From Halorhabdus utahensis DSM 12940 (GTDB lineage Archaea > Halobacteriota > Halobacteria > Halobacteriales > Haloarculaceae), in contig NC_013158.1 of assembly GCF_000023945.1 (NCBI RefSeq), positions 2,728,001 to 2,792,000 of the forward strand: DNA of 64,000 nt. The letters are read 5' to 3'. Under the pieces are notes generated by a model. The model had not been told where the DNA came from and searched no databases. It saw nothing but the letters and a program-made list of their open reading frames with translations. Shown here one piece after another: positions 10,162-13,227 of this stretch. Position 1 is the first letter of the stretch; every line of letters starts with the position of its first letter. Both the position numbers and the translations under genes were made by a program.

Positions 10162-10746
10162 TCATTCGTTGGGCAGATTCTCGACGCACGTGAGGAGGTC
10201 GTCTTCGGTGGTCCATCGGCAAAGCCGGCCTGCGTCGTCGAGCATTTCGAAGATGCCCGTCTGCATCGCGCTGTAGGGATCCTCGCTGTCGACCTCGGTG
10301 TCGAGTTCGTCCAGATCGAGGGCCTCGTACTCGCGTTTGAACACGTGCGTCTTCGCGAAGTACTCCTCCAGGGCGGTGAAATAGCCCTGTTCGACGAGAA
10401 AGCCGCCGTGGGCGTGTTCGGCGACGCCGACGATGACGTCCGTATAATCGGCCAGCAGCCGGAACTTGAGGTAGGTGTTCGTCCACTCTTTGCGGACGTC
10501 GACCATCAGGAACGCGTACGCGCCGGGCCGCTGGTTGAGTCGGTCCTTGACGAGCTGGAGGCGATCGATCTCCGGCTGGCCGTAGCTGCCCAGGATGAAA
10601 TACGCCCGCTCGGCGGAGAAGATCGGCGCGAGTTCGCCGACGCTTTGCTTGAGCGATTCGTATTCCTCGGGTGTGAGTGAGGTCCCGTGGAGATACGACT
10701 TGGCCTTCTCGGCGACCTCTTCGACAGAAACCGATTGCTCGTCCAT
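10162..10746 (-). CDS. Conserved haloarchaeal protein, possible nucleotide-binding fold
   Basis: A 194-residue protein I do not recognise. It starts with a helical region (EEVAEKAKSYLHGTSLTPEEY), then an alternating alpha/beta domain with strands such as RAYFILGSYG, YAFLMVDV, DVIVGVAEHAHGGF and GYFTALEEY. That pattern recalls Rossmann-like or nucleoside-deoxyribosyltransferase-like folds (inference). ATG 10746 (MDEQSVSVEEV) is chosen because upstream codons run into the divergent regulatory region. It is divergent from a winged-helix regulator, with repeated operator-like sites between them, which suggests that regulator controls it. Confidence 0.75.
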   Translation of the reverse strand: MDEQSVSVEEVAEKAKSYLHGTSLTPEEYESLKQSVGELAPIFSAERAYFILGSYGQPEIDRLQLVKDRLNQRPGAYAFLMVDVRKEWTNTYLKFRLLADYTDVIVGVAEHAHGGFLVEQGYFTALEEYFAKTHVFKREYEALDLDELDTEVDSEDPYSAMQTGIFEMLDDAGRLCRWTTEDDLLTCVENLPNE

Positions 10747-10800
10747 CTGGGAAACGGTTCCGCACGCGAACACTTCAATCCAACTACTGCTTCCCTCTGT

Positions 10801-10862
10801 GATTCGTCTTTGATCGATTCGCCACCAACCGATTCGTATTTGAGCGAAACGCTTTTGGACGA
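10801..10862. repeat. Three copies of an operator-like motif
   Basis: GATTCGTCTTTGATCGA (10801-10817) and GATTCGTATTTGAGCGA (10831-10847) are direct repeats exactly 30 bases apart, matching at 15 of 17 positions. A third, weaker copy sharing CG--TTTG--CGA directly follows at 10848-10862. The core has dyad character (TTCG-N8-CGA). The sites lie between the divergent starts at 10746 and 10883, the position expected for an operator. Confidence 0.65.
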
Positions 10863-10882
10863 AGCGGCCGAACAGTGTGATA

Positions 10883-11293
10883 ATGAGTACGCCAGAGACG
10901 CCGCCGAGCGACCTCGAAACCGTCCGGAGTCGGCTCAACGTCGTCACCCAGGAGACGCGGTTCTCGCTGCTGCAGGACGTCCTGGGCCATCCCGACGGGT
11001 TACCGACGCTGAAGGAACTCGATTACGTCAACCCGGGAAAGAGTCGGACTACGATCCGCCAGCACCTCGCGGAACTCGTCGACGCCGGGATCGTCGAGGA
11101 AGTGTTGCTTCCCGAGGACCAGCGGCGCAACGACCGCCCCTACAAGTTCTACGGCCTCAGTGAGGAGGGACGGGCGTTCTTGGAGGAGCACAAACTTCTC
11201 CGGGCGGAAGACACGCTGCGAGAGATCTACGATCGCGTGGAGAAAACCGACGAGATCGAACGGTACGAGTCCGCACCGCGACCCGAGCGGTGA
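10883..11293 (+). CDS. Winged-helix transcriptional regulator
   Basis: A 136-residue protein with an ArsR/MarR-like winged helix: TRFSLLQDVLGHP, then a recognition region SRTTIRQHLAELVDAGIVEEV, then a wing (RRNDRPYKFYGLSEEGRAFLEEH). A C-terminal acidic helix follows. The ATG at 10883 is the second possible start; a GTG six bases upstream is less likely. It is divergently arranged with the 10162-10746 gene, and the triple repeat between them is a plausible binding site, possibly including autoregulation. No sensor domain is visible. Confidence 0.82.
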   Translation: MSTPETPPSDLETVRSRLNVVTQETRFSLLQDVLGHPDGLPTLKELDYVNPGKSRTTIRQHLAELVDAGIVEEVLLPEDQRRNDRPYKFYGLSEEGRAFLEEHKLLRAEDTLREIYDRVEKTDEIERYESAPRPER

Positions 11294-11461
11294 GTATCAA
11301 CGGATTTCAGAGCTGTCTTGGATATCGCATAGCTAATGCTGCCACTGGAACGCGCTTCGAATCGTCAGTGGCACAACGGCGACGATTGCTCTGACACTGA
11401 AGACATTTAAATAGTCGCTCTGGGAGCAGAATATTTTTACAGTTCGACTACTACATTATAG
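11294..11461. other. AT-richer intergenic stretch with a hairpin and TATA boxes
   Basis: Downstream of the regulator, the perfect 8-bp inverted repeat TGCCACTG/CAGTGGCA (11340-11347 and 11366-11373) is a candidate transcript end. It is followed by AT-rich boxes CATTTAAATAG (11403-11413) and AATATTTTTAC (11431-11441). The base composition is clearly lower in GC than neighbouring genes. Confidence 0.55.
11431..11441 (+). promoter_or_regulatory. TATA-like box for the candidate structured RNA
   Basis: AATATTTTTAC is centred about 27 bases upstream of 11462-11465, the spacing used by archaeal promoters, so transcription would begin right at the folded RNA or at the tiny ORF beginning ATG at 11462. 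Confidence 0.45.
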
Positions 11462-11549
11462 ATGAGTACGGGAGCAGGTCAACACCACGGTCCCGTGGTG
11501 CGTGGCCTGGGAAGGGAAGTGAGGTAGTGGCTCACGCCTGTTGACTCCC
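11462..11549 (+). ncRNA. Candidate structured RNA with a compact three-way junction
   Basis: The plus-strand sequence folds by eye into three adjoining stems. P1 is GGGAG (11470-11474) with CTCCC (11545-11549), then TCAACA (11479-11484) with TGTTGA (11539-11544), leaving CAGG bulged. P2 is CCACG (11485-11489) with CGTGG (11494-11498) around a GTCC loop. P3 is GCGTGGCC (11500-11507) with GGC-T-CACGC (11529-11537), with a one-base bulge and a 21-base purine-rich loop. Only single bases separate the stems at the junction. A 21-codon ORF (ATG 11462 to TAG 11527) overlaps it, so a leader peptide is the alternative reading. Its 3' end overlaps the end of the convergent RNase H-fold gene. Confidence 0.45.
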
Positions 11550-12401
11550 CAGTTGGTTTCCGGTGTCAATAATGTACTGAGAGACGTCTTCATCGTCAAT
11601 ACGGTTCTTGACAAGGGTCTCAAATTGTTGCTGGGACAACTCTCCGAGTGCGTCTTCTGATGGGCGGTGTCCCGTCAGCCACGCTGCCACCTTCGACTCA
11701 AACGTGCTCTTCTGAGCGACTCCTTTCGGAGCCAGTTCATAAATGCGCCCCTCAAAATCAACGGACGGAACAGACCGTGAGCTATCGAAACGCTGGACGT
11801 GGTCTATTCGTTCAACTGCGTCCCCCTGTTCTATTCGATAGCGAAAAGCGTTGCAGGCGCAATCTGCCACAGTGACTTCAGGGTACGTTCTGTCCCCTTT
11901 TTCAAGTGTGGCGAAAGCGATGTTGACGTTGTTTTGGTTCTCGAAGTAGTCGTCAAGTATCTCAGATCGGGAGCGGAGGATGTTCTGTTTTCCCCCGAAG
12001 TTTGAGACACGGCCATCCAGGATGACGAGACAGTTAGTCGTGTCACCGTCGTGAGAGACGCCTGCTGGGACAACTGCTTTGATCGCCTCGACGGCCATGA
12101 GTGCCCGCTGGCCGCGATTAAGTGTCCCCCAGGCTGCTCGCGCTCGGGTCGGTATCTCAGTTTGTCTGAAGAACCTATAGAGTTCACCGACATCCAAGTC
12201 TGTCGATTTTTGTAGCCAGGGCTCAACACCGGCATTGAGCAGTTCCTTCACGACATGGACTGACTGCTTTCTGTCGATGAATGAAGCGCTTACAACAGTC
12301 GGGATTCTGTTTTCGTGTATGCCGGTTTCGTCGATTGCGATTACCGACTCAAACGCCTGTCCTGACGCTGTCGTCCCGGATAATTTGACAGGCGCGACCA
12401 C
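11532..12401 (-). CDS. Orphan RNase H-fold protein (RNase HII/DUF3800-like)
   Basis: A 289-residue protein with acidic residues arranged as in RNase H-fold nucleases: SVIAIDETG near residue 20 (Asp and Glu on strand 1), LVILDGRVSNFGGKQ near 127, and EVTVADCACNAFRYRIE near 176. The DE-G, D, AD-C order resembles RNase HII and DUF3800 proteins, but it lacks the canonical GRG and C-terminal tyrosine signatures, so it is not ordinary rnhB. The start is GTG 12401, exactly where transcription would begin from the TATA box at 12422-12431, suggesting a leaderless mRNA. Lower GC, more relaxed codon use and no functional neighbours suggest horizontal acquisition. The role is unknown. Confidence 0.7.
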   Translation of the reverse strand: MVAPVKLSGTTASGQAFESVIAIDETGIHENRIPTVVSASFIDRKQSVHVVKELLNAGVEPWLQKSTDLDVGELYRFFRQTEIPTRARAAWGTLNRGQRALMAVEAIKAVVPAGVSHDGDTTNCLVILDGRVSNFGGKQNILRSRSEILDDYFENQNNVNIAFATLEKGDRTYPEVTVADCACNAFRYRIEQGDAVERIDHVQRFDSSRSVPSVDFEGRIYELAPKGVAQKSTFESKVAAWLTGHRPSEDALGELSQQQFETLVKNRIDDEDVSQYIIDTGNQLGSQQA

Positions 12402-12642
12402 AATCTATGCCGGTGACCCCTCAGTATAAACCTTCTACTCTGGCGGTATCATACGCCACTGCAGGGATCGGTCACAACGCGAGTCATTCTCCCATACGGC
12501 GGTCGAGTAGCATGACGACAGCAGAGCAGGAAAGATGAACCAGCAGAAGGGACATCTGAAAACCCTAAGCGGAACGCTGGATCAGGTACGCTCCTCGATC
12601 AACAAATCCATGATCGAATGACCCACTCATCTGCGCTCCTCG
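12402..12642. other. Upstream region of the RNase H-fold gene with two tiny ORFs
   Basis: 241 bases. The minus-strand TATA box GGTTTATACTG (12421-12431) lies about 26 bases from the GTG at 12401. On the plus strand, an 8-codon ORF (ATG 12511) overlaps by ATGA a 28-codon ORF (ATG 12535 to TGA 12621) with an amphipathic sequence (KTLSGTLDQVRSSINKS). I cannot tell whether these are translated. No terminal repeats flanking the island were found. Confidence 0.4.
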
Positions 12643-13227
12643 TCAGGCATCTGTCTCGGGCGGTTGCTCGCGCGCACTCGGGATCGCTTCGAAGTATGGA
12701 TCAACCGACTGCATGTCGAGGACGACCTCCCGGAGGGCCTGCAAGACGGCGATGGCGAAGGCGTATTGGAGATCTAATTCCCGGGCAGCCACTCGTTCGG
12801 ACATCGCGCCGTCAGCATAGGGGATGGCGTAGGTGAGGGCGGCCGCAAGCTTTCCCAGGCCGTGCTTTTCGAGCAGAAGGTCGAGATCCTGATCTCGGGG
12901 TGCGCGTCCAACCGCCTCGATGAGGGTCGGCGTGACTGTGTGTTCGTCCCCGTCGAGGGTCGCAGTGAGCGAAATCGGAACGGCCGAATACCGGTGGGTC
13001 TTCCGTGTCTCGTCTCGAGTCAGCATACCAAGTTCGACGAGCGTGCCCGTATCCGAGTACGCCGTCGTCCGTGGCATCTCCAGTGCATCGCCGATATCGT
13101 CGATGGTGACCTCCCCCTCGCGGAGGACAAACGTGTACAGTCGCGCCAGCCGTGGCTCCTCTAAGAGCTGGGCGACCGACAGGAGGCCGTTGATGGCCCG
13201 CTCGGAATTCCCGGCGGTTCTCGACAT
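12643..13227 (-). CDS. Winged-helix regulator, probable control of adjacent MFS gene
   Basis: A 194-residue transcription factor. The N-terminal half is a winged helix (RLARLYTFVLREGEVTIDDI, then ALEMPRTTAYSDTGTLVELGMLTRD), followed by a wing (RKTHRYSAVPIS) and an alpha-helical C-terminal region typical of the haloarchaeal DUF7437-type HTH proteins, named by recollection. ATG 13227 is preferred over 13236 because the minus-strand TATA at 13250-13258 would start transcription at about 13228. It is divergent from the MFS transporter with promoters nearly back to back, which suggests local regulation. The ligand is unknown. Confidence 0.8.
   Translation of the reverse strand: MSRTAGNSERAINGLLSVAQLLEEPRLARLYTFVLREGEVTIDDIGDALEMPRTTAYSDTGTLVELGMLTRDETRKTHRYSAVPISLTATLDGDEHTVTPTLIEAVGRAPRDQDLDLLLEKHGLGKLAAALTYAIPYADGAMSERVAARELDLQYAFAIAVLQALREVVLDMQSVDPYFEAIPSAREQPPETDA

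Follow-up and report, generated by a model that had tools for sequence, protein, structure and literature searches.

A predicted haloarchaeal structured RNA family with its own promoter, convergent with an RNase HII-fold, DUF3800-like gene

Does the short interval at the 3′ end of an RNase H-fold gene of Halorhabdus utahensis DSM 12940 specify a structured RNA with a promoter of its own and, if it does, what might that RNA have to do with the gene? The interval lies in a stretch of 64,000 nucleotides (NC_013158.1, positions 2,728,001 to 2,792,000), referred to here as the window. An earlier note, made from the letters of the window, had read positions 11462-11549 as a new RNA folded into a tight three-way junction, leaving a leader peptide encoded by a 21-codon ORF as the alternative. 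tRNA and Rfam searches of the window returned nothing.

RNAs lying beside DUF3800 genes were reportedly listed by Weinberg et al. in 2017. DUF3800 proteins have an RNase H fold and are associated with putative non-coding RNAs (PMC10910872, citing Weinberg 2017), and they are also found beside Cas12a2 and in some V-A2 and VI-F CRISPR loci (PMC10910872, PMC12669027). In the papers that we consulted we found no function for the RNAs beside DUF3800 genes.

Results

A covariance model placed the core of the RNA on the plus strand (Table 1), and comparison of 30 distinct sequences gave a common structure composed of a P1 of five pairs, a P2 of seven pairs with a lineage-variable tip, and a P3 of nine positions with a 7-base loop. 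No base is unpaired between P1 and P2, and five are unpaired on each remaining side, rather than the single bases drawn at the junction in the earlier note. Two of the three stems proposed there had to be redrawn. The GGGAG/CTCCC helix does close the junction as P1, but its supposed extension, TCAACA/TGTTGA, is not a conserved pairing. P3, drawn as GCGTGGCC with GGC-T-CACGC, is not conserved in that form, the conserved pairing being GTGAG/CTCAC around the loop GTAGTGG. The hairpin CCACG-GTCC-CGTGG was recovered as proposed; it sits at the tip of a single long arm that it forms together with the P2 base (CAGGTCA/TGGCCTG). The tip sequence differs lineage by lineage, and the P3 loop is conserved inside clades (GTAGTGG, or GTCACAG in another clade). 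Loop-loop pairing of the P2 tip with the P3 loop could be matched by eye in one clade and failed in all the others.

Table 1. Features of the locus in window coordinates.
Feature	Position	Strand	Basis
RNA promoter: BRE-like AA (11430-11431), TATA element TTTTT (11434-11438)	11430..11438	+	ungapped register
Inferred transcription start region (A)TGAG, start near 11462-11463	11462..11466	+	TGAG conservation, TATA distance
Predicted structured RNA core, three-way junction	11470..11549	+	covariance model R1 match, 71.8 bits
P1 5′ strand GGGAG	11470..11474	+	pairs with 11545-11549
P2 base 5′ strand CAGGTCA	11475..11481	+	pairs with 11503-11509
P2 tip hairpin CACCACG-GTCC-CGTGGTG	11483..11500	+	sequence, pair probabilities 0.97-1.0
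P2 base 3′ strand TGGCCTG	11503..11509	+	pairs with 11475-11481
P3 hairpin, GTGAG/CTCAC core, 7-base loop GTAGTGG	within 11515..11539	+	comparative pairing
P1 3′ strand CTCCC	11545..11549	+	pairs with 11470-11474
Partner gene, predicted RNase HII-fold, DUF3800-like, 289 aa, GTG start	11532..12401	-	ORF and homologue model
TATA-like promoter of partner gene, AAGGTTTATAC on the minus strand	12423..12433	-	identical in four close relatives
Accessory unit	11350..12449		88% identical to three loci with unrelated flanks

The core pairs (21 pairs across the 30 distinct sequences) comprise 549 Watson-Crick, 50 G-U, 9 A-C and 22 other combinations. Since a G-U pair on one strand reads as A-C on the opposite strand, the ratio of 50 to 9 establishes the plus strand. 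A minus-strand RNA, sense to the gene, which had been our initial reading of the conserved 3′ flank, was ruled out by these counts and by the direction of the promoter. In the structural alignment of the same 30 sequences 95% of the paired cells were in fact paired, compared with 77% in shuffles. The covariance-model alignment (A4), biased towards the structure through having been fitted to it, had 90.5% of core-pair cells paired and a covariation of 0.413, against 0.146 after shuffling and at most 0.106 in slid registers; a MAFFT alignment (A3) that was not fitted to the structure gave 85.8% and 0.348. Cells of P1 were 100% paired in 29 distinct sequences, with column 4 switching between C-G, U-A and A-U, and changes on both sides were seen in six of the seven pairs of the P2 base. 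RNAalifold, run on the plain MAFFT alignment, returned 13 pairs, among them P1, some of P3 and an incomplete P2 tip, and missed the P2 base because stem lengths vary among clades; the full fold required structural alignment and covariance modelling.

Within the window sequence itself, pair probabilities reached 0.94-1.0 for P1, P2 and the P2 tip and at least 0.98 for the P3 core, and were 0.24 for the outer two pairs of P3. Folding of this single sequence against shuffled controls gave z scores of -0.37 (11440-11570), -1.90 (11462-11549) and -2.07 (80-nt core); folding alone is a weak chance test at this locus, and the comparative evidence is strong. The argument that such packing is unlikely to arise by chance is borne out by the homologues, through their covariation and a mean z of -3.84 across 29 distinct sequences, rather than by folding of the segment 11440-11570 on its own. 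The plus strand had the lower folding energy in all 29 (mean -43.1 versus -35.9 kcal/mol). Compared with three relatives, the RNA core was 95.0-97.5% identical, the gene 89.4-89.8%, and other non-coding parts and flanks 68-80%.

Haloarchaeal promoters are laid out as a BRE, a TATA element and a -10 element. Upstream of the RNA, the ungapped alignment of 30 sequences has AA at -33/-32 (1.44 bits each), a T-rich box from -29 to -25 (0.9-1.8 bits), T and A at -10/-9, and TGAG at positions 0-3 in 25-29 of the 30 sequences, a pattern that we take to be this layout; the window sequence is without the -10 TA. A TATA-like box had been proposed at 11431-11441, and a box does lie upstream of the fold, but the conserved register shifts both the TATA element and the probable start (Table 1), the latter being assigned from its distance to the TATA. 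The predicted product is a non-coding RNA of roughly 90 nt. With the covariation, the promoter register and the distribution described below, the segment is almost certainly a real structured RNA with its own promoter, as first proposed, albeit in a different fold.

The gene on the opposite strand is convergent (tail-to-tail) with the RNA and in the window overlaps it by 18 bases, in agreement with the antisense overlap that had been described. The spacing of its own promoter appears to fit a leaderless GTG start. The structural model of the window protein was poor (pLDDT 53), whereas that of a homologue (L040) reached a pLDDT of 73.4 and a pTM of 0.83 and matched RNase HII (PDB 1eke) with a Foldseek E-value of 4.5e-8 and a VIA Z of 11.9 (163 residues at 3.4 Å, residues 26-215). 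On this model the protein is predicted to have an RNase HII fold, the structural match covering most of the catalytic domain. All 24 proteins compared keep D24, E25, D129 and D180 (window numbering), presumably as an active site of the RNase HII type would require, and the protein is a putative metal-dependent nuclease that would use these four residues. It resembles RNase HII in its predicted fold and, presumably, in the DE near the N-terminus and two further invariant Asp residues, but it differs in its low identity (14-16%), its patchy accessory distribution, an additional helical part at the C-terminus and the linked RNA.

Sequence searches did not place the protein in a known family. Pfam gave no match to DUF3800, RNase HII or TnpB (up to an E-value of 1 for the window protein and of 10 for three homologues); the window protein had no Pfam match of any kind, none in PADLOC, none in the PDB by sequence, and a match of chance level only in NCBIfam; and no relatives were found in IMG/VR or phages. 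The protein combines an RNase H fold with a DESG motif and has no Pfam match to DUF3800. Alignment by hhalign to haloarchaeal DUF3800 proteins reached a probability of 55.6 over 50 columns, aligning the last of the Asp motifs, and for this reason we call the protein DUF3800-like rather than DUF3800.

The covariance-model search of haloarchaeal genomes that the earlier note had suggested detected the RNA, with abundant compensatory changes, in 39 of 391 Halobacteria genomes, about one in ten. The protein was found in 34 of the 391, and the two occur together in 31. A similarity search with the window segment found it in three other genomes, and the segment was also matched directly 3′ of divergent relatives of the gene (24-30% protein identity). 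At every locus examined the RNA is downstream of the gene and convergent with it, and all intact family genes examined carry it, the protein-only genomes being G036 (fragments), G342 (a weak 41-residue match) and G418 (gene end replaced). Plasmid copies in Halorubrum, Haloferax, Halarchaeum, Haloterrigena and Halococcus likewise have the RNA directly 3′ of the gene; databases label the gene in these copies hypothetical and once DUF4823, and plasmid gene tables omit RNA genes. In a phylum-wide sample, under strict filters, matches were confined to the same order, and among viral contigs three had the 17-base P3 motif only, with partial scores at chance level.

Eight of the 39 genomes have the RNA only, some of them with gene remnants. 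This excess suits an inhibitor RNA that has outlived its toxin; it could also suit simple decay, because deletions would hit an 870-nt gene more readily than an 80-nt RNA. RNA and protein have diverged in parallel (Mantel r 0.77 between their distances, with 0 of 2000 permutations reaching it), a correlation that is expected from co-inheritance alone and is no proof of contact.

Several individual loci depart from the common form. In Halorhabdus amylolytica (L038, G001:C1:335896-336569) about 400 bases are deleted from the interior of the protein gene, of which a 161-codon in-frame ORF is left; the RNA is intact there, as is its promoter. In G418 (L063) the RNA is missing, and the place of the 3′ end of the gene is taken by a sequence that long inverted repeats border on both sides (GGGTCATAGGGTCGTGCGTAGA and a near complement of it); the replacement looks like a small mobile element. 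Two identically scoring copies (L008 and L016, G054:C1:1250597-1251421 and 1350336-1351160) lie 100 kb apart on one chromosome, which suggests a recent duplication or an assembly artefact.

The RNA and the gene lie together in an accessory unit whose GC content (52.7%, versus 64.1% for the window) confirms the AT-richer island that had been noticed. Units of 1.1-1.3 kb are found on chromosomes and plasmids, at unrelated sites, and three copies have about 1.26 kb in common. These comparisons mark the unit as mobile or accessory. In a Halorhabdus relative both flanks of the window locus (10702-11292 and 12612-13000) are present, with different DNA between them. In this relative (G005:C1:1898458-1900553) the intervening DNA measures about 2.1 kb, so that the site resembles a small hotspot of accessory insertions. 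The ends of the 1.26 kb unit (G302, G093, G001 and G070), left GCAGCACGGCAAC and the complement of right GCAGCCCACAAC, look like imperfect inverted repeats and are a possible clue to how the unit moves. At one locus (L062), 110-210 bases beyond the gene end, a direct repeat of about 30 bases (CCGTGTTACAGGATA...TTGCTACTATAC) duplicates the TATA region of the RNA.

No Rfam family matched the RNA, and no DUF3800 family was among the matches up to an E-value of 10 (12 loci, the window segment and L060). By these searches it is a haloarchaeal RNA family absent from Rfam 15. The nearest known kind are the DUF3800-associated RNAs (DUF3800-I RF02969, DUF3800-VI RF02915 and DUF3800-IX RF02968), which are likewise small structured RNAs adjoining an RNase H-fold gene of the DESG type. 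In the one bacterial case of DUF3800-VI that we compared, a sub-threshold match, the RNA, typed as cis-regulatory, is upstream of the gene and co-directional with it; the haloarchaeal RNA, in contrast, is downstream and convergent and has its own conserved promoter. That case is on a Paraburkholderia megapolitana plasmid (L154, 1392-1444; 29.8 bits, cut-off 35), 60 bases upstream of a DUF3800 gene that shares its strand, in a plasmid whose gene table is without RNA genes. Genuine haloarchaeal DUF3800 loci had no copy of the RNA nearby, with the sole exception of L102, which was found through its RNA. There (G021:C1:2023700-2029800) a lone RNA and a true DUF3800-like ORF are about 660 bases apart, with an apparent restriction-endonuclease-type ORF between the two. 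The RNA resembles the DUF3800-RNA arrangement and, judged by the Rfam models, is outside the described RNA families.

Discussion

The comparisons suggest that the RNA and the RNase HII-fold protein probably constitute a two-part accessory module, with the RNA serving the nuclease as a dedicated partner, and a physical partnership of the two is, on the same comparative grounds, rather likely. In the mechanism that we propose, the RNA would be transcribed independently, on the plus strand and under an archaeal promoter of its own, would bind the RNase HII-fold protein as its dedicated partner, and would either hold the nuclease inactive or set its target. The module would then act like a toxin-antitoxin or defence cassette and spread on plasmids and accessory regions. 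Between these roles we tentatively favour an inhibitor over a guide or scaffold, given the resemblance of the modules to cassettes carried on plasmids and the lack of a visible guide segment. In type III toxin-antitoxin systems a single operon encodes an antitoxin RNA of tandem repeats and, downstream of it, a ToxN-like toxin. The module may share with such ToxIN-like systems the logic of a nuclease-restraining RNA on plasmids and accessory DNA, but its RNA is a single fold without tandem repeats, its partner has the RNase HII fold, and the two are convergent rather than in the same operon.

Could the RNA instead be loaded into the RNase HII-fold protein and direct it to nucleic acid, in the manner of the omega RNA of TnpB (IS200/IS605, IS607)? 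One mobile unit that joins an RNase H-fold protein with a structured RNA next to the 3′ end of the protein's gene would invite this reading, as would the DUF3800 proteins near CRISPR nucleases mentioned above. We nevertheless consider it unlikely. The RNA has no variable segment, its 5′ side being the promoter and its 3′ side entering the gene end, and conserved sequence on both sides of the fold leaves no guide segment visible beside it. No repeat-spacer array was found, and upstream of the RNA promoter there were no repeat arrays, with short direct repeats in a few loci. Unlike omega RNA, the RNA is on the strand opposite to the gene, as judged from the G-U count and the promoter; it has a promoter of its own, and the modelled protein is of the RNase HII type.

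The convergent layout and the 18-base overlap of the ORF make antisense control possible in the clade of the window, where the RNA overlaps the gene end, and the RNA might then merely dampen expression of the RNase H-fold gene through pairing with its mRNA. This too seems improbable as the general explanation. In other clades the stop codon of the gene is outside the fold, yet stems and loops are conserved with compensatory changes, and pure antisense pairing would not preserve a three-way junction. That the RNA is separate from the 5′ leader of the gene argues for an action of the RNA molecule itself, beyond cis-regulation.

We regard as very improbable that the inverted repeats are ends used in recombination or transposition rather than parts of an RNA: the mobile or accessory character of the unit would agree with such a DNA-level element, but DNA does not explain the excess of G-U over A-C, the unit runs on for about 110 bases past the fold, and the promoter is conserved in register. 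The chance that the 21-codon ORF present in the clade of the window is a leader peptide or attenuator is negligible, the start being ATG, GTG, TTG or absent among homologues, the ORF ranging from 9 to 48 codons, the peptides being unrelated between clades, and the gene to be led lying on the other strand.

The family supplies an archaeal counterpart to the RNAs beside DUF3800 genes, with clear covariation and a conserved promoter, and its putative partner is of the RNase HII type with intact acidic residues. Haloferax and other haloarchaea have copies on small plasmids, and since some of these hosts are genetically tractable, direct tests of binding, cleavage and toxicity are feasible. It is quite possible, although we hold this with some reserve, that haloarchaea possess a ribonucleoprotein system in which an RNase HII-fold nuclease would be armed, aimed or restrained by an RNA made from a convergent promoter, and which would spread on plasmids as a defence or addiction module.
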